DNA of 64,000 nt from Jiulongibacter sediminis (lineage in GTDB: Bacteria > Bacteroidota > Bacteroidia > Cytophagales > Spirosomataceae): positions 372,001 through 436,000 of the forward strand of contig NZ_LGTQ01000005.1 of the NCBI RefSeq assembly GCF_001306455.1, read 5' to 3'. Positions 3,363-18,236 of this stretch are shown here, piece by piece (position 1 is the stretch's first letter; every line of letters begins with the position of its first letter). The notes under the pieces were generated by a model. It was not told the DNA's origin. It worked only from the letters and a program-made list of their open reading frames with translations, and ran no database searches. The translations under genes and the position numbers were made by a program.

Positions 3363-4001
3363 CTATGCGATGGCTTCTTTGTAAAGAAATTTACCAAGAT
3401 CTAACACAGATTTGATTGGTGTGTTTTCAACCAAATCAAAAGTAGCCATGATAGCCTTTTCAATGAAAATGTCCGTTTTTTCAAAGCCTGCTGACTCATC
3501 ATTGACCCAGAAACGCATCACTACCAAAAGCTGAGCCCAAGCGGCCTCCTGAAAGGTGTTTGACTTAAACTTTTCTAACCGTTTTGCCTCAGACTTTATT
3601 TGCTCAGCAAAAATTTCCTGAGTGTAATTAGAGAAATGCTCCCTCAAACCTTTTAACTGCTCCAGTTTGTTGAACTCTTTTATGTTTTTTGGCAGAGCTG
3701 CTAAAACATAACTTCTGTTAGCCGTGAGAATCTCAAAGAAAGTGTAATAAAAACTCAGAAGTTTCTCTCGTGAATCGTATTGTTGGTACTCTTCATTTTT
3801 CTCCAGGAGTTCGATTGTCTTTTCAAAAAACGTTGTGAATACTTTCTTTTCGACGGCCTTTAGTGACCCATATTCCTGATAAAATTCAGTTTCAGTCAGT
3901 TTATTTTCTTTACAGAACTTATATACGCTCTCAGGCTCGGAGCCATGCTCTAAAACCCACTGCATATAAAGTTCTAAAATTGATTTTTTCGTTTTCGCCA
4001 T
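3363..4001 (-). CDS. TetR-family transcriptional regulator
   Basis: A 212-residue one-component regulator. The first 50 residues form a TetR-type helix-turn-helix domain (ILELYMQWVLEHG, then SVYKFCKENKLTETEFYQEYGSL), followed by a helical ligand domain with the FTTFFEKTIELL and SFYYTFFEIL segments. It is the first gene of the minus-strand operon leading to the photolyase and is followed within 3 bases by the ABC1 kinase. A 9-base inverted repeat about 30 bases upstream of the ATG is a good candidate autoregulatory operator. The ligand is unknown. The family call rests on the overall helix layout and operon position rather than a strict signature. Confidence 0.82.
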   Translation of the reverse strand: MAKTKKSILELYMQWVLEHGSEPESVYKFCKENKLTETEFYQEYGSLKAVEKKVFTTFFEKTIELLEKNEEYQQYDSREKLLSFYYTFFEILTANRSYVLAALPKNIKEFNKLEQLKGLREHFSNYTQEIFAEQIKSEAKRLEKFKSNTFQEAAWAQLLVVMRFWVNDESAGFEKTDIFIEKAIMATFDLVENTPIKSVLDLGKFLYKEAIA

Positions 4002-4031
4002 GATGTTTTCTGTTGATCAAAATAGAAACAA

Positions 4032-4062
4032 TGTCTAACTGTGATTAGTTTAAAGTTAGACA
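4032..4062. promoter_or_regulatory. Candidate TetR operator
   Basis: Perfect 9-base inverted repeat TGTCTAACT (4032-4040) and AGTTAGACA (4054-4062) with a 13-base spacer. A smaller pair, AACT and AGTT, is nested inside around GTGATT. It lies between the DUF885 stop and the TetR start, where an autoregulatory operator is expected. No exact TAnnTTTG element is seen beside it on the minus strand. Confidence 0.5.
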
Positions 4063-4068
4063 AAATTC

Positions 4069-5367
4069 TTACTCATTGATCAACCTCAACGGCAAAACTT
4101 GTTTGCTCAGCAATTCACCGAAGGCTTTCCATCGTCCTTCATTTGTATCTGCTCTGCCGTCGATGTATTGGGCAATCAGGTCTTTGCCGTAGTTGTAGTT
4201 GATGACATAACTGCGGTATTTTCTGGTAAAGGCAATTCTCTGTTTCGCTTTGTCGGGGCTATAGAAGCCATATTTGATGAGGAACTCGATTCCCTCATCG
4301 TCTGTCATATTGCCATTTAAAATGCCTCTGGCAACTTCATTGCCAGCATAATTAAGTTTTGAAACGCTTTCTAAAGCTTTAAAATAGGCGGTAATTCCGG
4401 TGGTATCTAAACCAGCCAATGGTAAAAGAGTCTCCTTACAAAAGGCGATCTTTTCCTCTTCAGGAAAGGCCAGTTGAATACCGTAATTTGCCGACCCTTC
4501 AGCAATAAGCGATTGTGGGCTAAAAAGCGGGTAGAGTGATGTTTCTATGTAGCCTTTTTCGTTATAAAGGTTTTCCTCCAGGAGCATATTATAAACATGG
4601 TGACCGGGGTAGCTTTCATGGCTTCCTACATCAATAACCCGCTCGATGGAAATGGGAAAATCAGTATTGATTTGTATCAGGCTGGTGTAATTTCCTTTGT
4701 ACCAATTGTAACCGCTCCAAGCCTTGTCACCCACATATTCAAGGTTAAAACTTTCATTTTCAGGAATTGGATAATGCAGTTTCGTTTGGTTGCGAGCCTC
4801 AGCAATAGCAGCTCTTAAAACTGTATCCAGTCTGGCGGGCGGAATTACAAACTGCTGACTCAAAGTAGCAAACCGATCTTTCAAACTGCCAGAACCTGGC
4901 AGAGTGTTTTCAAGGTCATTAATTATTTCCTGGAAATGACTCTCTTCAAAATTGGGAGCCGAAACGCCGAATAGCTTTTTTGATTCTTCATCAAAATCTG
5001 AGGTTTCGCCGGCCACGATTCGAATTCTTTCTTCAGCCGCTATAAGTTGAGCCAAAATATAATTTGCTCTTTGAACCTCAATTTCATCTGAGGAGTTTTT
5101 GATAAATTCCTGAAAGCCTGACTGAAGGCCAATTACTTTATGCAAAAGCATTTCTTTCGGAAAAGAATCATACTCTGCCGGTGCTGGCTTCAGGTTGTCA
5201 GGCCCGTAATATGCATCTACAAAATCAGGGTCATATTGACCAATTAGAAGACCGGTTTTGACATATTCTTTGGCTAGTTGTTCGAGAGGGTTGGTTTCTT
5301 CTGGTGTGGTATTGCAAGATTGAAATAGAACAGTGAGGAGAACAAATGAAAGGTATATTTTCTTCAT
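4069..5367 (-). CDS. DUF885-family lipoprotein, putative metallopeptidase
   Basis: A 432-residue exported lipoprotein: an N-terminal hydrophobic signal ends in the lipobox LFQSC with Cys18. The body matches DUF885, a family with gluzincin-like zinc peptidase features: HESYPGHH at 250-257 supplies the two metal His and the catalytic Glu, and SLIAEGSANYG (Glu290) fits the third ligand. Members I know are often longer, 550-600 residues, so this is a short version. Substrate is probably peptides, but that is not shown. A possible minus-strand -7 element (TAGTTTTG, complement of 5436-5443) lies about 70 bases upstream. It is 68 bases upstream of the TetR operon and the two may be separate units. 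Confidence 0.82.
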   Translation of the reverse strand: MKKIYLSFVLLTVLFQSCNTTPEETNPLEQLAKEYVKTGLLIGQYDPDFVDAYYGPDNLKPAPAEYDSFPKEMLLHKVIGLQSGFQEFIKNSSDEIEVQRANYILAQLIAAEERIRIVAGETSDFDEESKKLFGVSAPNFEESHFQEIINDLENTLPGSGSLKDRFATLSQQFVIPPARLDTVLRAAIAEARNQTKLHYPIPENESFNLEYVGDKAWSGYNWYKGNYTSLIQINTDFPISIERVIDVGSHESYPGHHVYNMLLEENLYNEKGYIETSLYPLFSPQSLIAEGSANYGIQLAFPEEEKIAFCKETLLPLAGLDTTGITAYFKALESVSKLNYAGNEVARGILNGNMTDDEGIEFLIKYGFYSPDKAKQRIAFTRKYRSYVINYNYGKDLIAQYIDGRADTNEGRWKAFGELLSKQVLPLRLINE

Positions 5368-10344: not shown

Positions 10345-11714
10345 CGGTTTCGGTATTGGTCAAGGCAGTTATAAAAAGCATAATCAGGTTTGTTTTCGAT
10401 CATCCGACCCACTTGAATGGCCAGTTCACGTATATGGTAGTCGCCCCACATGCTGCTTTCATGGCAGGCGATTTTCTGTCCTTCCGGAATATTGTCCCAG
10501 CCGTTCGGCTGATGATAAATGCTGTGCAGCAAAATACCCTGATGATGATCTTCGGTAGAGAGATAGGGCTCTTGAAGCAGACTTTCCGTGGTGGTCAGTC
10601 CGGCTTTTATATAGTTGTCATCATTCAGATACTTTCCTAAGCGAATCAAACCCTGGGCTGCAATCGCGGCCGCTGTGCTGTCAACGGGCTCAAAATCATT
10701 ATAAGGATCGGCTTTGACCTGGGTATAATCACCCAGCTTGTGGATGTTTGGTGCCCCGGTATCCCAGTAGGTTATGCCATCAAGAGCCGTATTCTCAATG
10801 AAGAAATCACAAGTGGCTTTCGCTCCCTTTTTAAGGATTTCAATCAATTCTTTTTTGGAAATCAAGCCTTCAAATTCACTTTTGGGCAATAGGCTCATTA
10901 ATTCCAATTCCTCGGCAAATCCGCAAATGGCCCAGGCCAAACCGCGTGTCCAGGTGGTAAAGCCGCTGAAACCTTGCTGGGCATTAGGAGCCCTGAAGTT
11001 TCCGTCGTTGGTATTGAAAATGCATTCATGAGCGGTGCGGCCCCAAACATCGTAAGAGTCTCGGCCTTCGCCATAGTATACATTATATTTTGCGGTGGAT
11101 AGTATATGTTTGATGCCTCTTTCCAGCAGGTTGATGCTGACATCATTCTCCCCCTTCAATTTATGACCCATCAGATGGCTAAGCATCAGAATCCTCACCG
11201 AACGAATGGTGTCTACAAACAAAGAATGAGGCCCATTGAAGGAGTAGATGTAACCGCCATCCACCGTTTTTGTCCAGCGGGAGGCCTGCACAGCTCCACT
11301 GTTTTTAATGGCCAGTTCATAGAAGTTTTGCTCCCAGTCGTTCTGCGGAATCAGGCTTTCTTTCATAAAACGTAGAAGGTTTCCGTAGGTGCTGATGTTA
11401 TTAAAACCGTGATCGTGAACCCCAATATGGGTCAGATGCGGAGCCATTTTCTCCAGGGTATTTTTCCGGCCGATGTTGAGAAACTCCTCGTCGCCCGTGG
11501 CCTCAAATTGTAAAAGAGCGGAGCCATATTGAAACCCCTCGGTCCATTCGGTCCATCCCCGTGAGCTGTATTTCCCGTTCACCGTAAAAACCGGTGCTCC
11601 CTTTGAGGAGTCATATTCCTGTTCAATTGATTTGATTTTTTGACCTGACAAGGTCCAGAAGTCCACCAATAGACCTTTTAAGTCTTGCGGAGCAATGTCT
11701 TTTTTGACCTGCAT
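10341..11714 (-). CDS. GH88-like (unsaturated glucuronyl) hydrolase family protein
   Basis: A 457-residue protein with the (alpha/alpha)6-barrel pattern of the GH88/GH105 group, which hydrolyse unsaturated uronyl residues left by lyases. Seen are the repeated helical hairpins typical of the fold, WTEGFQYGSALLQF (57-70), GVHDHGFNNISTYG (98-111), FTTWTRGLAWAICGFAEE and a late CHESSMWGDYHIRE. No signal peptide, so it should act on imported oligosaccharides in the cytoplasm. It heads a minus-strand set with the OYE-like and SDR genes. The family call is by pattern; activity might have drifted from uronic acids, given the redox partners. Confidence 0.72.
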   Translation of the reverse strand: MQVKKDIAPQDLKGLLVDFWTLSGQKIKSIEQEYDSSKGAPVFTVNGKYSSRGWTEWTEGFQYGSALLQFEATGDEEFLNIGRKNTLEKMAPHLTHIGVHDHGFNNISTYGNLLRFMKESLIPQNDWEQNFYELAIKNSGAVQASRWTKTVDGGYIYSFNGPHSLFVDTIRSVRILMLSHLMGHKLKGENDVSINLLERGIKHILSTAKYNVYYGEGRDSYDVWGRTAHECIFNTNDGNFRAPNAQQGFSGFTTWTRGLAWAICGFAEELELMSLLPKSEFEGLISKKELIEILKKGAKATCDFFIENTALDGITYWDTGAPNIHKLGDYTQVKADPYNDFEPVDSTAAAIAAQGLIRLGKYLNDDNYIKAGLTTTESLLQEPYLSTEDHHQGILLHSIYHQPNGWDNIPEGQKIACHESSMWGDYHIRELAIQVGRMIENKPDYAFYNCLDQYRNR

Positions 11715-11733
11715 TTAATTCAATAGAGTTTGG

Positions 11734-11762
11734 TTGAGCTCAATGAACGAAATCAATCGTTC
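11734..11762. promoter_or_regulatory. Paired palindromes upstream of the GH88-like operon
   Basis: Two adjacent symmetric sequences lie 20-48 bases upstream of the GH88-like ATG: the perfect 10-base palindrome TTGAGCTCAA (11734-11743) and the inverted repeat GAACGA-AATCAA-TCGTTC (11745-11762). Their position suits an operator for a sugar-responsive regulator. No regulator gene lies next to them. Confidence 0.4.
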
Positions 11763-11828
11763 GTGATTAAATGCGAAGTAATACAATATTGCCCTAAATG
11801 GTGTCCTTTGCCGTCATTAATTTACCAT

Positions 11829-12338
11829 TTAATCCGGTTTTTTTGCCGCGATGACTTCGATCTCAATGAATTTGTGGGGGTTCACCAAAGTGGCTACTCC
11901 AACGGTGGCCCGAACGGGCTTTGAAGGATTTTCCTCGTTGCCGAAATACTGTTTATAAGCATTATTCCAACCTACAAAATCATATTGACCACTTTGGGTG
12001 TCTGGTGCTACAAAAACGTGCATAGAGAACACATTAGTCAACGAATAGCCACTTTCAGCTAAAGTGGTTTTGATTTTTTCCAGAATATTCAGGGCCTGCG
12101 TTTCAGTATTTCCGTATTTGGCATAATTGCCATCTTCCAATGTCGGATCCAGAGCACCGGCCGTGAAACCGCTGGTATAAAAAACAGCATAGTCAGATGG
12201 CACTGAAGCCGTTGACGAGATAATGGATTTTGGATTCCCTTTTAACTCGAGTTCCTGGGCCTGGCTATGGAATGAGATTGTGAAGGTGTTAACTAATAGA
12301 ATGCTGTATATTTGAATTTTAGCAATATTAAATTTCAT
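11829..12338 (-). CDS. Exported RidA/YjgF-family protein
   Basis: A 169-residue RidA-family protein; this family hydrolyses reactive enamine/imine intermediates made by amino-acid-degrading enzymes. The core starts near residue 38 and shows FYTSGFTAGALDP, the KIKTTLAESGYSLTNVFSMHVFV segment, and PVRATVGVATL with the catalytic Arg143, followed by IEIEVIA with Glu159/Glu161. Unusually it has an N-terminal signal peptide (cleavage near SQAQ, residue 28), so it should act outside the cytoplasm. It diverges from an exported D-amino-acid-oxidase-like gene 114 bases away, whose product would be an imine, exactly a RidA substrate. Function by family is solid; the pairing is inference. Confidence 0.88.
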   Translation of the reverse strand: MKFNIAKIQIYSILLVNTFTISFHSQAQELELKGNPKSIISSTASVPSDYAVFYTSGFTAGALDPTLEDGNYAKYGNTETQALNILEKIKTTLAESGYSLTNVFSMHVFVAPDTQSGQYDFVGWNNAYKQYFGNEENPSKPVRATVGVATLVNPHKFIEIEVIAAKKPD

Positions 12339-12452
12339 CTTTTTTTGATTAATGTTTATGAATAAACTGAATGTTTAAATTTATGCAAAATAAGATTTCT
12401 TGATTACCGACCGCTCCGGATTTCTTTCAAAAAATTTAAACATTGAATTCAA

Positions 12453-13604
12453 ATGAACAGAAGAAATTTCTTTCTGAAAGCGGGTGTGGTCGGAGCTTTG
12501 GCAGCGACCGAGGGTCTTCAAAGTTGTGTGACCGGGCCGAAACTATACGGGGACAAAAGTTTTTATATCAATAGGGGTTTTACCGCCATTCCCAAACTTA
12601 AACTTTCCTCTGACCGCATTATTAAAGAAACTGTGGGGCTCAGGCCTTTCCGAATCTCAGGCCCTCGAATGGAAAAAGAAATGCTTGGCTCTAAAACCAT
12701 CGTTCATAATTATGGTCACGGTGGCAGTGGCTGGTCGCTCTCCTGGGGTACCGGAAATCAGGCTCGCGAACTGGTGAAAACCACTCCATACAAAGAAGTC
12801 GCTCTGCTGGGTTGTGGTACGGTTGGCATCGCTACAGCCACATTATTGCAGGAAAGTGGCTTCAAGGTCACCATTTATACCAAGGATGTACCACCCAATG
12901 TGACCTCTAATCTGGCCACTGGTACATGGTCGCCCTCCTCCAGAGTTTGCGACCGCGAAAGTGCCACGCCTGAGTTTGAAGCACGCTGGCAGGATGCCAC
13001 ACGTTTTTCTTTCAGAAGAATGCAGATGATGCTGGGCATGAATGATATTGTGGCCTGGGGCGATGAATACCAGGTAAGAAAAAATGCCCCTTCAGGCACC
13101 CGACGAGCGGGAGGCTCTGAAGTCTTCCATCTGAAAGGTCTGGCACCGGAATGGCGGGAACTTGGCAAAAAAGATCACCCTTTCAATGCCGATTATGTGA
13201 GACGCCGGAGCAATATGATTTTCAACATTCCGAGTTACCTCAATTTTCACCTGAACAACTTCATGATCCGTGGCGGAAAGGTGGAAATCAAAGAAATCAA
13301 AACCCCGGAAGACATTGATGCTCTGGAGCAAAAGGTAGTGGTTAACTGCATGGGGCTCGGAGCCGGACAGGTGTTCAATGATAAAGAAGTGTTTCCCATC
13401 TCAGGTCAGCTGGCCTGTCTTGTACCACAGACAGAAGTCAATTACAAACTCGCCACCGACGGAGCTTACTTTATCACCCGAAAAGATGGTATCTACCTGG
13501 GCGGCACCGGCAAAGAAAACAGCTGGGATACCAATCCCGACCGGGCCGAAACGGAGAAGTGGGTGAGTATTTTATCGGATTTGATGAAGGAGATGAAGGG
13601 GTAG
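12453..13604 (+). CDS. Exported D-amino-acid-oxidase-like flavoprotein, circularly permuted
   Basis: A 383-residue FAD oxidoreductase of the D-amino-acid oxidase (DAO) type. The N-terminus, RRNFFLK then GLQSC (Cys25), looks like a Tat signal with a lipobox, fitting export of a folded, FAD-loaded protein. The block order is abnormal. In ordinary DAAO the GLRPxR, RLExE and HNYGHGGxGxxLSWG segment is C-terminal; here it is at residues 61-99 (VGLRPFR with Arg64, PRMEKEMLG, HNYGHGGSGWSLSWG), before the Rossmann motif LLGCGTVGIATA (118-129). The protein then ends after the GGT...WDT block (350-360) that normally precedes that segment. All the main conserved blocks are present, so it is probably active. 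It diverges from an exported RidA gene. Confidence 0.85.
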   Translation: MNRRNFFLKAGVVGALAATEGLQSCVTGPKLYGDKSFYINRGFTAIPKLKLSSDRIIKETVGLRPFRISGPRMEKEMLGSKTIVHNYGHGGSGWSLSWGTGNQARELVKTTPYKEVALLGCGTVGIATATLLQESGFKVTIYTKDVPPNVTSNLATGTWSPSSRVCDRESATPEFEARWQDATRFSFRRMQMMLGMNDIVAWGDEYQVRKNAPSGTRRAGGSEVFHLKGLAPEWRELGKKDHPFNADYVRRRSNMIFNIPSYLNFHLNNFMIRGGKVEIKEIKTPEDIDALEQKVVVNCMGLGAGQVFNDKEVFPISGQLACLVPQTEVNYKLATDGAYFITRKDGIYLGGTGKENSWDTNPDRAETEKWVSILSDLMKEMKG

Positions 13605-14020
13605 TTTTAAAGACTCAAGATTTAAGGCGGAAGACTAATATCTTTCGTCTTTTGAATGAATTCTTGCTTCGAATAGCTTTATGGACTTTGAGGAATATGT
13701 TTCAAGGTACTTCGACCTAGTTGTCTTTGGTGCAATAAATTCAATATCGGGCAGAAGACAGAGTGACACCTACCTCGAAGTCTAAAAGACTTCAAGGAGC
13801 AGAGATACTACAAAGGAAGACACAAGATCATTAAAAGTCTTGCGTCATAAATCTTCATCTTAAGTCTTCAAAAAGACTGACGACTCATATTTATATGCTA
13901 AACTTATAAATTTCCAGCTTCGTTGAAGTTTAAGAATCTTCAGGCTACTGGATTAAAGCTTACTTTCAAAACATTTTTCAAGAATAGTTCGTAGTCTTCA
14001 ATCAATCCCTAATTGTTCAT
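13605..14020. repeat. 416-base gap rich in AGACTT hairpins
   Basis: No credible gene. The sequence is dominated by AAGAC/GTCTT words in both orientations, near 13610-13660, 13745-13840 and 13845-13885. Two perfect small hairpins are visible: GAAGTCT-AAA-AGACTTC (13777-13793) and AGTCTT-CAAA-AAGACT (13863-13878). They lie between the convergent ends of the DAAO-like gene and a lipoprotein gene, where transcript ends are expected. The same repeat type recurs in other gaps of the window. Confidence 0.6.
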
Positions 14021-15031
14021 TTACAATATCTTACATGAAAATTGTCTTATGTAAGAAAACTGAGGTTGATTGACGTTGTTATAAAAAATATATTCCAATT
14101 GATTTCCTTTCTGGTCAAAGTATGCTGAAGTCAAAACACTATTTGAACCATTTCTGAAGGAATACGTTTTCCTATGACTCAGCCCCCCGTTGGAGAAATA
14201 TTCAAATTCTTGGTATAACCTGTAATTCTGATCATCGTTTGAAAGATCAGTGCTGGTCAAGAATCCATTGCTATAATTATATGTGTAGTAGTCATTAACT
14301 CCATTTGATTGAAACCGGATCTCCTTAATTTTTAGACCCTCTGAATTATATTCAAAATGACGAAAAGGAGCATCGTTATTCATTATGGAAATAAGCTGAG
14401 TAAGAGAGTCATATTTATACACTAAAATATCGGTAACATTGGTCGGAGGAATGAACCATATTTCTTTTAAGAGATTTTGATTGTCATCATATTCAAGGGT
14501 TCTGCGTTGGGTCAGTTGGTCGTTGGTAAGCATTTCTTTCTTTAAGATATTCCCAGCCTCGTTATACTCATTCCGGGTAGTGCTCTTCTGATTGTTTCTG
14601 ACCAATTCAAGTAAGGTCTGATTTCCCGACTCATCATACTCAGCCAATGAAGACTCAGAAGTGAAGTAATTAATGACCAAACTTCTTCGAACTTGGCCAT
14701 TTTTATGATAGTTATACTCCGTAAGTGACCTATTTCTGCCGTCTTCTACTTCTAAAATTGAATTGAGTTGGTCACCAGAATAGTCTTTGAAATAAACTCT
14801 TTGATAAGTAATACCGTTCTGATAAAAAATTGTTGAATCCAAGTTAAGAAGGTCATCATAAAAGTTAATTTCAGAGCTAGATAAAGTTTCATAATCATAA
14901 AGCTCGGATTTTAGAATTACACACTTTTCCAGTAGCTCCTGCTGAGAGGGCTTGACCTTATCATCAGTTTGACATGAGATTACAAATATTAAGGAAAGTA
15001 AAACGCTTAGTTTTGTTGTGATTGAGGACAT
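14021..15031 (-). CDS. Lipoprotein with YD/YwqK-like repeats
   Basis: A 336-residue predicted lipoprotein: a hydrophobic N-terminus ends in FVISC (Cys20). The body is built of short repeats of the type EYDESGNQTLLELV, EYNEAGNILKKEML and EYDDNQNLLKEIWF, spaced about 20-40 residues, which resemble the YD/RHS-like and YwqK-type beta-strand repeats of many Bacteroidota surface proteins. No catalytic motif is seen. Function unknown; probably a cell-envelope protein. It stands alone between two repeat-containing gaps. Confidence 0.7.
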   Translation of the reverse strand: MSSITTKLSVLLSLIFVISCQTDDKVKPSQQELLEKCVILKSELYDYETLSSSEINFYDDLLNLDSTIFYQNGITYQRVYFKDYSGDQLNSILEVEDGRNRSLTEYNYHKNGQVRRSLVINYFTSESSLAEYDESGNQTLLELVRNNQKSTTRNEYNEAGNILKKEMLTNDQLTQRRTLEYDDNQNLLKEIWFIPPTNVTDILVYKYDSLTQLISIMNNDAPFRHFEYNSEGLKIKEIRFQSNGVNDYYTYNYSNGFLTSTDLSNDDQNYRLYQEFEYFSNGGLSHRKTYSFRNGSNSVLTSAYFDQKGNQLEYIFYNNVNQPQFSYIRQFSCKIL

Positions 15032-15191
15032 ATATTAGAGGGTTATAAGTTGGGATTTATTCTTGGCATTCCAAGAAAGTTTATTTCCTTTTTTTGAGGC
15101 AAAGTTATTTATCATTTTATAGAATTAAGACTACAAAAACTAATCCATTAAAAGGGAAAACTATCGGCTCGCTTACATATTTCAGTCCATA

Positions 15192-15268
15192 TATACCCCC
15201 CAGGAAGTATTCAACCGTCAAATTATCAATGAAATAGACACCTCGACCAGTAGATTGCATTCTGGTTC
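15192..15268 (-). pseudogene. Decayed duplicate of the carB 3' end
   Basis: Within the 361-base gap 15032-15392, the minus strand of 15192-15260 reads MQSTGRGVYFIDNLTVEYFL, matching the end of CarB (MKSTGEGIYFIDNLKDEYFL). By hand about three quarters of 69 aligned bases agree, many differences being at third codon positions, and the similarity extends a few bases further with a one-base indel. There is no reading frame for the rest of CarB, so this is a remnant of a duplicated or displaced carB end lying about 130 bases beyond the intact gene. The remaining gap holds repeat sequence and the carB terminator. Confidence 0.75.
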
Positions 15269-15333
15269 ATAACTTAACAGAGTCTCCGTCATGGACTCAG
15301 CGGACATAAATTAAATTCAATAAAAGGTATAAA

Positions 15334-15367
15334 AAAAGACGCAAGACCAGCCAGTCTTACGTCTTTT
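15334..15367 (-). terminator. carB terminator hairpin
   Basis: Arms AAAAGACGCAAGAC (15334-15347) and GTCTTACGTCTTTT (15354-15367) pair over 14 bases with one mismatch or wobble around a 6-base loop. On the minus strand it follows carB by about 25 bases and ends in a T run. It is built from the same AAGAC words as the dispersed repeat. Confidence 0.7.
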
Positions 15368-15392
15368 ATCTTAAATCTTATGTCTTTCGAGC

Positions 15393-18236
15393 TTAACGAC
15401 TCATATACATATTTCTTTCCTTGTAAACCTTCAGGAAGTACTCATCTTTCAAATTATCGATGAAATAGATGCCTTCACCAGTTGATTTCATCTCTGGTCC
15501 CAGCTCCTTGTTTACATTCGGGAATTTGTGGAAAGAGAACACCGGTATCTTGATGGCGTAGCCTTTCTTTACCGGCTGGAAATTAAAGTCTTTGACTTTT
15601 TTCTCGCCCAGCATCACCTGAGTCGCATAGTTGACATACGGCTCCTGGTAAGCTTTACAGATGAATGGAACAGTACGTGAAGCTCTTGGGTTGGCCTCGA
15701 TCACATATACGATTTCATCTTTAATGGCAAACTGGATATTGATCAAGCCTTTGGTATCCAAGGCTACCGCAATTCGTTTGGTATAGTCTTCAATCTGAGC
15801 CAGAACGTTCTCACTCAAATCAAAGGCCGGAAGAACCGCGTACGAGTCGCCCGAGTGAATACCCGCCGGCTCGATATGCTCCATAATACCAATGATATAG
15901 GCTTCCTCCCCGTCGCAGATGGCATCGGCTTCGGCCTCTACCGCTCCTTCAAGAAAGTGATCGAGTAGAATATTATTATCCGGGATTTCGCTAAGAATTC
16001 GCACGACGTGTTGCTCCAGCTCATCCTCGTTGATCACAATTTTCATGCTTTGGCCACCCAATACGTAGGATGGTCTAACCAAAAGCGGGAATCCAAGTTC
16101 TTTTGAAACCTCAACGGCTTTGTCAGAAGTTCTTACAGTGGTGAATTTCGGGTAAGGAATGCCTAATTCCACCAGTTTCTCTGAGAAACGACCACGATCT
16201 TCAGCCAAATCAAGAGCCTCCCATGAAGTACCGATGATTTTGATGCCGTATTTTGTCAGTTTCTCCGCCATTTTAAGAGCTGTTTGACCTCCCAACTGAA
16301 CAATCACCCCTTCCGGTTTTTCATGCTGAATGATGTCATACACATGCTCCCAGAAAACAGGCTCAAAGTAAAGTTTATCAGAAATATCCGGATCGGTTGA
16401 AACCGTTTCAGGGTTACAGTTGATCATAATGGTTTCGTAGCCACACTCTTTAGCGGCCAAAACACCGTGTACACAAGAGTAGTCGAATTCAATCCCCTGC
16501 CCAATACGGTTTGGACCTGATCCGATGACAAGAATCTTCTTCTTATCAGAAACCTCAGACTCATTATCCGGATTTTCCTGTTTTACGTTAAATGTGCTGT
16601 AGTAATAAGGCGTTTGAGCCTCAAACTCAGCGGCACAAGTATCTACACATTTGTACGCTCTTTTAATACCTAATTCATGTCTTTGAGCAGCCACTTCGCT
16701 TTCCAGACGGTGAACAAGGTGAGCAATCTGACGGTCGGCATAGCCTTTTTGTTTGGCTTCCAGCATCAGATCAGCCGGAATATCCTCCAGCTTATATTTC
16801 ATAATTTCTTTTTCCAGATGAATCAATTCTTCAATCTGGTGAAGGAACCACTTGTCAATTTTCGATAAATTTTGAATCGTATTGAAAGACAATCCGGCCT
16901 TGAAAGCATCGTAGATATGGAACATACGATCCCACGAGGGGTGCTCCAAGCTTTCTTTCAAAGCTGCCTGATCTTTCAGTTCTTTGCCGTCAGCACCCAA
17001 ACCGTTTCTTCCGATTTCAAGCGATTGACAAGCTTTTTGGAGAGCTTCCTGGAAGTTTCTTCCAATACCCATGGCTTCTCCCACGGCTTTCATCTGAAGA
17101 CCAAGCTTTTGGTCAGCACCTTTGAACTTGGCAAAGTTCCATCTCGGTACTTTTACGATCACATAGTCAATCGCCGGCTCAAACATCGCCGAAGTGCTTC
17201 CCGTAATTGGGTTGATCAATTCATCAAGATTATAACCTATCGCCATTTTAGCAGCGATTTTGGCAATCGGGTAACCCGTGGCTTTTGAAGCCAGGGCCGA
17301 TGATCTACTTACACGCGGGTTAATTTCAATACCGATGATGGTGTCATCGTCAGGGCTAAGGGCAAACTGCACATTACATCCACCGGCAAATTGCCCGATT
17401 CCATTCATCATTTTGATGGCCATATCACGCATACGCTGATAAATGGTATCAGGTAGCGTCATAGCCGGTGCAACGGTTATAGAGTCACCAGTGTGAACGC
17501 CCATAGCATCGAAGTTTTCGATGGTACAAATGATCACGATGTTTCCTACGTTGTCTCTAAGGAGCTCAAGCTCATATTCTTTCCAGCCAAGGATAGATTG
17601 CTCTATCAAAACTTCATGAACAGGAGAAGCATGAAGGCCAGCATTCAGGGCTCTGTCAAATTCTTCAGGTGAGTTTACAAAGCCTCCACCATAACCACCC
17701 ATGGTAAATGATGGTCTGATTACGAGTGGGAAACCAATTTCCTGTGCGATTTCTTTTCCTTCTAAGAACGACTTCGCCGTACGTCCTTCGCAAACGCTCA
17801 CCCCGATTTCCTTCATTTTTAATCGGAATTTCTCGCGGTCTTCGGTGGTTTCGATAGCATTAATGTCAACACCAATCATTTTGGTATTGAACTTTTCGAA
17901 GATTCCGGCTTCGTCACATTCTATGGCAAGGTTAAGAGCGGTCTGTCCTCCCATGGTCGGTAAAACAGCATCAATTGGCTTGCCCATGTCCACATGAATC
18001 TGCAGAATTTCCTCAATGTATTTTTTCTCCAGAGGTTTCAGATAAACATAGTCAGCATTCAGCGGGTCGGTCATGATTGTGGCCGGATTTGAATTAATCA
18101 AAGCCACCTCAATTCCTTCTTCTCTTAATGATCTTGCTGCTTGCGAACCGGAGTAGTCAAACTCACATGCTTGCCCGATAATGATCGGTCCCGAACCTAT
18201 AATTAGAACGGACTTTAGATTGGTATTTTTTGGCAT
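15393..18236 (-). CDS. carB: Carbamoyl-phosphate synthase large subunit
   Basis: A 947-residue CarB, which makes carbamoyl phosphate from ammonia (delivered by CarA), bicarbonate and two ATP for pyrimidine and arginine synthesis. It has two ATP-grasp halves, each opening with a related loop: VLIIGSGPIIIGQACEFDYS near the N-terminus and ILVIGSGPNRIGQGIEFDYS near residue 570. Best-known homologues are about 1070 residues and end in an allosteric MGS-like domain binding UMP or ornithine. Here the protein stops after LGPEMKSTGEGIYFIDNL, at the point where that domain would begin, so allosteric control of the usual kind is absent. A decayed copy of this 3' end lies downstream. carA is not in the window. 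Confidence 0.97.
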   Translation of the reverse strand: MPKNTNLKSVLIIGSGPIIIGQACEFDYSGSQAARSLREEGIEVALINSNPATIMTDPLNADYVYLKPLEKKYIEEILQIHVDMGKPIDAVLPTMGGQTALNLAIECDEAGIFEKFNTKMIGVDINAIETTEDREKFRLKMKEIGVSVCEGRTAKSFLEGKEIAQEIGFPLVIRPSFTMGGYGGGFVNSPEEFDRALNAGLHASPVHEVLIEQSILGWKEYELELLRDNVGNIVIICTIENFDAMGVHTGDSITVAPAMTLPDTIYQRMRDMAIKMMNGIGQFAGGCNVQFALSPDDDTIIGIEINPRVSRSSALASKATGYPIAKIAAKMAIGYNLDELINPITGSTSAMFEPAIDYVIVKVPRWNFAKFKGADQKLGLQMKAVGEAMGIGRNFQEALQKACQSLEIGRNGLGADGKELKDQAALKESLEHPSWDRMFHIYDAFKAGLSFNTIQNLSKIDKWFLHQIEELIHLEKEIMKYKLEDIPADLMLEAKQKGYADRQIAHLVHRLESEVAAQRHELGIKRAYKCVDTCAAEFEAQTPYYYSTFNVKQENPDNESEVSDKKKILVIGSGPNRIGQGIEFDYSCVHGVLAAKECGYETIMINCNPETVSTDPDISDKLYFEPVFWEHVYDIIQHEKPEGVIVQLGGQTALKMAEKLTKYGIKIIGTSWEALDLAEDRGRFSEKLVELGIPYPKFTTVRTSDKAVEVSKELGFPLLVRPSYVLGGQSMKIVINEDELEQHVVRILSEIPDNNILLDHFLEGAVEAEADAICDGEEAYIIGIMEHIEPAGIHSGDSYAVLPAFDLSENVLAQIEDYTKRIAVALDTKGLINIQFAIKDEIVYVIEANPRASRTVPFICKAYQEPYVNYATQVMLGEKKVKDFNFQPVKKGYAIKIPVFSFHKFPNVNKELGPEMKSTGEGIYFIDNLKDEYFLKVYKERNMYMSR

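Follow-up and report, generated by a model that had tools for sequence, protein, structure and literature searches.

The protein encoded by the permuted DAO-family gene of the window (the whole stretch of Jiulongibacter sediminis DNA that was analysed, 64,000 nucleotides in length; Table 1) is almost certainly a circularly permuted member of the D-amino-acid oxidase (DAAO) family. DAAO (EC 1.4.3.3; structures 1kif and 7ct4) is among the most studied flavoenzymes. The features common to DAAO and this protein, below called the window protein, are the Rossmann FAD domain, the GxRPxR motif with the equivalent of Arg283, a Tyr at the Tyr228 position, the HNYGHGG loop, the LGGT...W block and the predicted fold of the body (with about 20% identity to pig DAAO 1kif over the aligned body), whereas about 60 C-terminal residues have been moved to the N-terminus and a Tat-type leader has been added.

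Table 1 Features of the permuted gene and its divergent neighbour (positions in the window)
Feature	Position	Strand	Remarks
Permuted DAO-family flavoprotein (window protein)	12453..13604	+	383 aa ORF, Jiulongibacter sediminis
Tat-type leader (by motif), MNRRNFFLKAG..., with R3R4 and LQSC end	12453..12527	+	Cys25 is a possible lipidation site
Transposed block, residues 55-110, GLRPFR and HNYGHGGSGWSLSWG	12615..12782	+	Equivalent of the DAAO C-terminus
FAD Rossmann motif GCGTVG, residues 120-125	12810..12827	+	Translation and A2 alignment
Body, residues 114-380	12792..13592	+	Equivalent of DAAO residues 1-269, VIA-align
Rid-family (PF01042) gene with signal-like N-terminus, predicted imine hydrolase	11829..12338	-	Pfam 5.6e-14
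Divergent intergenic region between Rid and oxidase genes, 114 bp	12339..12452		Gene coordinates

Permuted order and predicted fold

A sequence-only reading of the gene had placed the block that closes known DAAO chains ahead of the Rossmann motif, and the translation bears this out directly: GLRPFR (residues 62-67), RMEKE (72-76) and HNYGHGGSGWSLSWG (85-99), the last containing the HNYGHGGxG flavin loop (85-93, as in the A2 alignment of 69 permuted proteins), all precede GCGTVG. The RLExE-type motif expected within the block is present with the actual letters RMEKE, and the FAD motif does follow the block, but at residues 120-125 and not at 118. Its glycines (G120, G122 and G125) are invariant in all 69 rows of A2, and the GxGxxG motif is thus internal instead of N-terminal. 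The chain closes, as had been read, after the LGGT...WDT block (349-360), with 23 more residues that include a predicted helix (364-380); this end corresponds to about residue 269 of DAAO.

Searches against solved structures returned the two parts of the protein in swapped order. When compared with PDB chains using phmmer, residues 55-110 of the window protein matched residues 319-374 of Rasamsonia DAAO (7ct4), and residues 115-364 matched residues 25-291 of the same chain. With the family profile, the two parts were scored separately in human D-aspartate oxidase (DASPO, EC 1.4.3.1, 6rkf; i-E 8.7e-28 and 6.6e-11), which is the best structural and profile match of the window protein and, unlike it, has the conventional order; the swapped two-piece order was seen in all five printed alignments of this profile (6rkf, 7ct4, 1c0i, 8hy5 and 5zj9). 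Judged from the sequences, chance is excluded as the cause of the permuted motif order, and since the order of the Rossmann motif and the GHGG block is reversed, the protein was placed in a permuted branch and not with conventional DAAO.

The surrounding 3.8 kb (positions 11701-15500) were scanned in six frames, i.e. 138 segments longer than 15 aa, with a C-terminal-block profile made from 28 conventional homologues. The sole match was the window protein itself (residues 56-108, E 2.7e-17), with no other copy of the C-terminal block, and no recognisable trace of one, in this region. A duplicate or second block, which would have spoken against the sequence-only reading, was sought and not found there; as the block is present once nearby, the protein is genuinely permuted and the block not duplicated, and both a duplicated block and a split remnant were ruled out. 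A conventional-order paralogue was likewise sought in the genome of J. sediminis, and no second match was obtained at E values up to 0.001. It might still be argued that the order is only apparent, produced by misassembly, by duplication of the block or by a neighbouring gene with a frameshift, but besides the single occurrence of the block, permuted genes are single open frames in all of the best 80 of at least 568 named-genome loci, which come from many assemblies, and the permuted loci of further genomes are open single frames as well. These observations refute the artefact, to which a negligible probability was assigned.

An AF2 model of the window protein, built with 69 family sequences, had a mean pLDDT of 88.4 and a pTM of 0.85. 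Averaged over blocks of 10 residues, pLDDT was 96 to 99 for residues 51-140, and it fell below 50 in segments 13-43 and 216-221. In this model the transposed block forms three strands (56-67, 72-78 and 81-87) and a helix (90-108), which leads through a six-residue loop into the strand 115-119. The top Foldseek match was 6rkf (E 5.9e-16), and VIA-align superposed model residues 112-379 on 6rkf 2-263 (Z 21.4, rmsd 2.5, 250 residues) and residues 114-380 on pig DAAO 1kif 1-269 (Z 20.7, rmsd 2.5 A, 248 residues). The structure prediction called for by the earlier reading thus indicates that the body would fold like DAAO and DASPO. These in-order alignments span model residues 110-380 and leave model residues 50-110 and DAAO residues 270-340 unmatched, which is what an in-order alignment of a permutant is expected to give. 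The position of block 55-110 at the DAAO C-terminus is therefore assigned at the sequence level, with its fold predicted; modelled alone (69 residues), the block gave a poor model (pLDDT 79.0, pTM 0.50). Taken together, the swapped PDB matches, the conservation across phyla described below and the confident predicted fold of the body uphold the circular permutation proposed earlier.

Domain searches placed the window protein in the DAO family (PF01266, 1.2e-22, 81.4 bits against a cut-off of 27.9), the best stretch covering residues 116-378 only and reaching no further than profile position 297 of 353. Of the NCBIfam models, the 25 listed (of 34) all scored below their cut-offs. The top match among those listed was the glycine oxidase ThiO (TIGR02352), which belongs to the same superfamily, but the window protein, scoring 44 against a cut-off of 250.8 bits, is not a member; in solved glycine oxidases the body of the window protein matches the start of the chain, as in the conventional order. 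The D-amino-acid and D-arginine dehydrogenases DadA and DauA have the DAO-family fold in common with it, while their models match its sequence weakly, far under the cut-off. A DAO-domain score does not by itself expose the permutation in annotation, and the 13 plasmid matches described below are annotated merely as 'FAD-dependent oxidoreductase' or have no table entry.

Spread and origin of the permuted form

Homologues with the same order, which the sequence-only reading had suggested looking for, were readily found. All 80 named-genome loci that were kept, the best 80 of at least 568 relatives, are permuted; because relatives were ranked by similarity to a permuted query, this set leans towards the permuted form and is no census of both orders, and the remaining 488 of 568, which lie outside the order count, may hold conventional proteins. 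The kept loci, many of which are metagenome bins, belong to the Bacteroidota, Pseudomonadota, Acidobacteriota, Gemmatimonadota and Verrucomicrobiota. Matches were also present in 10 of 39 near genomes and in 35 of 296 genomes drawn from the phylum (the J. sediminis genome being included in both counts); in the phylum draw, loci were made from 30 places and matches in G228, G264 and G322 were left out. Among the loci so collected, L001-L012 are all permuted and L013-L040 (n=28) all conventional, and L041 is a remote permuted member from another family; of 99 genomes of its order, one holds a near-copy (a short match in G347 was left out of this count). Finally, 13 plasmid records contained a match, of which six were opened: four carry the permuted form (Kozakia, Rhizobium, Bradyrhizobium and Nonomuraea) and two the conventional one (Nocardia and Streptomyces). 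The Nonomuraea record (11.8 Mb, filed as a plasmid) adds the Actinomycetota as a sixth phylum, and the permuted form is thus present in at least six phyla.

The origin of this form was addressed with three unrooted trees of the shared body. In each of them one branch split permuted from conventional proteins: 87 vs 28 rows in tree 1 (support 100/97; rows L003, L004, L006-L009 and L097 omitted), 70 vs 28 rows in tree 2 (100/98; without L041 and 17 further rows) and 40 vs 25 rows in tree 3, a hand-picked set of 65 rows that includes the plasmid forms (97/90). Such a one-branch split is what a single origin predicts and, in trees that are unrooted, is consistent with the permuted form behaving as one clade. 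The conventional order was taken as ancestral on the basis of the order of the aligned solved DAAO and DASPO chains and of the Pfam model. A permutation arising more than once, with L041 or the leader-less rhizobial group independent, is quite unlikely. The branch of L041 is 4 to 5 changes per site long, which makes its placement unsure, and this protein matches permuted and conventional proteins about equally (best scores of 70.4 and 66.5 bits, respectively); on the other side, a single branch carries the split in each of the three trees, with 96 to 100% of the bootstrap replicates recovering it, and the block joins the Rossmann strand at an identical place.

Several loci carry additional copies. 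Two neighbouring same-strand permuted genes lie on one contig of a bin labelled Thalassovita (L065:2507-3649 and 3836-4975), and since the encoded proteins fall among those of Bacteroidota in the tree of 87 vs 28 rows, the label of the bin is doubtful. Genome G016 holds a close permuted copy and a second, more distant one (L011, 36% identity to the window protein). Among the conventional proteins, L026-L027, L031-L032 and L034-L039 constitute a second DAAO-like group, with open frames 375-422 residues long, that lacks the GxRPxR pattern as searched and forms a separate long branch in the tree of 87 vs 28 rows.

Leader and Rid partner

The window protein is predicted to be exported, its leader (MNRRNFFLKAGVVGALAATEGLQSC in the translation) being of Tat type by motif. 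The twin Arg proposed earlier for this protein is confirmed as R3R4. Such a pair, with a hydrophobic stretch after it, is found ahead of the block in 92 of the 94 permuted ORFs, whereas shuffling the same stretches gave a mean of 4.1. This count involves no choice of start codon and considers leaders 55-105 residues before the YGHG motif; the 94 ORFs are not independent, as several of L001-L012 represent the same organisms as named loci. In the named genomes alone, 80 of 81 permuted ORFs bear the leader. The two failures, L007 and L108, both have a short stretch before the block. Picking start codons in favour of the twin Arg, a biased procedure, gave 90 of 94, with that of L084 spurious. Of the 69 rows of the A2 alignment, 67 have RR and 60 have Cys25. 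A Cys stands 10-33 residues past the twin Arg in 83 of the 92 leader-bearing ORFs, and 77 of 94 pass a strict lipobox pattern. In the window protein, for which a lipobox had been claimed, Cys25 is there, but LQSC is imperfect and fails the strict pattern. The genome encodes TatC (9.1e-66), whereas the Pfam TAT_signal model (PF10518) scores the window protein at 6.8 bits, under the cut-off of 22.7, for which reason the export is called Tat-type by motif only.

For 26 of the 28 conventional homologues, no more than 16 residues separate the start of the open frame from the matched Rossmann region, which leaves no room for a leader in these proteins; the frames of L022 and L032 extend further upstream. 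The leader counts and the presence of TatC lend sequence-level support to export of the window protein, which the earlier reading had contrasted with cytosolic or peroxisomal DAAO. The leader is absent, however, from the permuted proteins of Rhizobium, Bradyrhizobium and Nonomuraea (three plasmid forms), so export marks the main group and not the permutation as such.

The neighbouring divergent gene of the RidA/YjgF/UK114 family (PF01042, 52.6 bits against a cut-off of 27.3) is one of five PF01042 matches in the whole genome. Gene neighbourhoods, with genes called as longest ORFs by a simple gene caller, were analysed for 75 of 81 loci (L110, L111, L112, L114, L120 and L121 were dropped because the central gene was not recovered). 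A Rid match lies near the permuted gene in 13 of these 75 loci, one per locus and that of the window included, at offset -1 on the opposite strand in 12 and at +2 in one. Among the 288 genes no more than two positions away from the permuted gene there are 13 Rid matches, and among the 538 more distant genes of these contigs there are none. Ten of the 13 loci come from the wider Bacteroidota group of J. sediminis and are non-independent; the others are two from Verrucomicrobiota (L087 and L101) and one from Adhaeribacter (L066). Rid was absent near the permuted gene in the other 62 of the 75 loci, and the available flanks of 12 Dyadobacter loci gave no match. The two verrucomicrobial Rid genes (L087:1436-2776 and L101:253-1524, both on the minus strand), divergent from the permuted gene, encode long chains with a signal-like N-terminus and what look like three Rid-type repeats each; the number of stretches matched by Pfam is 1 and 3, respectively.

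The Arg of the KPxR motif is present in 10 of 10 aligned Rid partners and, from the RidA motif, is presumably catalytic. Rid proteins with the conserved Arg are described as hydrolysing imines that arise from an amino acid oxidase, and Rid genes as clustering with genes for FAD amine oxidases (PMC4433059); the main text of that paper does not contain the terms 'periplasm' or 'signal peptide', and the partner gene of the window has a signal-like N-terminus. Iminoarginine, the product of D-arginine dehydrogenase (DauA), is reported to be a substrate of Rid2 and Rid3, and not of RidA/Rid1 (PMC5619798). From this chemistry and the genomic context, we infer a coupling of the permuted enzyme to Rid.

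Function of the permuted enzyme

In DAAO, Arg283 of the GxRPxR motif binds the substrate carboxylate. In the family profile, this residue (human numbering) aligns with R64 of the window protein, and Arg is found there in 69 of 69 rows of A2. Y339, within 'GAYFITR', aligns in the same profile with human and pig DAAO Tyr228, which makes it the equivalent of this Tyr. The Tyr228 position is occupied in A2 by Tyr (41), Ser (13), Asn (8), His (6) and Leu (1) (n=69); such variety beside a fixed Arg64 points to subgroups with different substrates, and substrates probably differ within the permuted clade. Tyr331, eight residues before Y339 in the window protein, is invariant in all 69 aligned permuted proteins.

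The best explanation overall, with a probability of about 0.65, is that the protein would be an exported FAD-dependent DAAO-like amino-acid oxidase or dehydrogenase that passes its imino acid to Rid, the label 'D-amino-acid oxidase' being an activity suggested by sequence. At the sequence level, and with the fold predicted, a DAAO chain has been re-cut before its last beta-strand/helix unit, so that this unit, with the carboxylate-binding Arg and the GHGG flavin loop, is now made first and leads through a short loop into Rossmann strand 1. In the main group, the new N-terminus bears the Tat-type leader, and the enzyme, already folded and with FAD bound, probably leaves the cytoplasm by this route, in many cases to be anchored by a lipid. 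The reaction it probably carries out is oxidation of an amino acid at the alpha-amine, with Arg64 holding the carboxylate; the likeliest substrate is a D-amino acid, and the product would be an imino acid. Electrons would pass to O2 or to the respiratory chain. In the lineage of J. sediminis, the putatively exported Rid protein from the divergent gene may then hydrolyse the imine to a keto acid and ammonia.

Part of this scheme would change if the enzyme were instead a permuted respiratory amino-acid dehydrogenase, tethered to the membrane and with a quinone or c-type cytochrome instead of O2 as its electron acceptor, which implies no periplasmic H2O2. The predicted export and possible lipidation agree with such an enzyme, and L-amino acid deaminases and D-arginine dehydrogenase are among the structural matches. 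On a Kozakia plasmid (L135:4001-5661), moreover, a gene for a c-type cytochrome (PF13442, PF00034) with a signal-like N-terminus begins 5 bp downstream of the permuted gene, which suggests a dehydrogenase in the Kozakia lineage. The nearest matches in fold and sequence are nevertheless true oxidases (DAAO and DASPO), and genes for CxxCH proteins are rare around the permuted gene (5 of the 288 genes no more than two positions away vs 3 of 538 further out), with none this close to the permuted gene of the window. Such a respiratory dehydrogenase was judged improbable, though by no means negligible. As a general rule, a cytochrome partnership was rejected, the near and far counts being too weak. 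The Kozakia cluster also holds a serine hydrolase and a TonB-dependent receptor.

About equally improbable is that DAAO-like chemistry was kept while the substrate is another carboxylate-bearing amine (N-substituted, an L-amino acid or peptide-derived). The varied Tyr228 position beside the fixed Arg64 and the extra invariant Tyr331 would fit this, as would the aminotransferase-family neighbours of the permuted gene in Adhaeribacter and the Catalimonadaceae. The window protein itself, however, retains both the Arg283-like and the Tyr228-like residue, and hydrolases of families that include D-aminopeptidases adjoin other members. Three Dyella loci have a PF00144-type serine hydrolase gene downstream of the permuted one (called by Pfam in one locus and by similarity in the other two). 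Genes of this type also adjoin L041 and occur in the Kozakia cluster, with a further one five genes off in L049, and a PF03576 peptidase gene is located upstream of the permuted gene of L117. Families of the PF00144 and PF03576 types can act on D-residues and include D-aminopeptidases, but also contain unrelated esterases.

The occurrence of the permuted clade in at least six phyla indicates that the DAAO fold tolerates re-cutting beside the active site. The clade offers a natural test of DAAO folding and FAD binding, and enzymes with termini unlike the known ones. If enzyme and Rid are both exported, amino-acid oxidation and imine hydrolysis would take place in the periplasm, where cell-wall D-amino acids appear. 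A tentative and more far-reaching picture, less probable than not, is that one ancient permutation gave rise to a large bacterial DAAO branch, mostly of tethered Tat-exported oxidases or dehydrogenases, in several lineages of which an exported Rid clears the imines, i.e. a periplasmic deamination pathway with an imine safety valve. No description of a natural DAAO permutant was found in the open-licence literature searched. In CIRPIN (PMC12667903), a circularly permuted partner is reported for 137,020 domains of a cluster set of predicted structures; its main text nowhere contains the words 'oxidase', 'FAD' or 'D-amino', and its bulk list could contain a permuted DAAO family.

Other gene rows deserve mention. 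In Adhaeribacter (L066:8202-13560), class V and class I aminotransferase genes, Rid and a flavin amine-oxidase family gene lie beside the permuted gene, and both aminotransferase-type proteins as well as the amine-oxidase-type protein bear twin-Arg leaders, the leaders in this locus being twin-Arg or signal-like; this row may represent an exported amino-acid pathway. On the Rhizobium (L131) and Bradyrhizobium (L132) plasmids, the leader-less permuted gene occurs in an identical three-gene order, flanked by a gene for an FAD-binding oxidoreductase and one for a thiamine-diphosphate enzyme.
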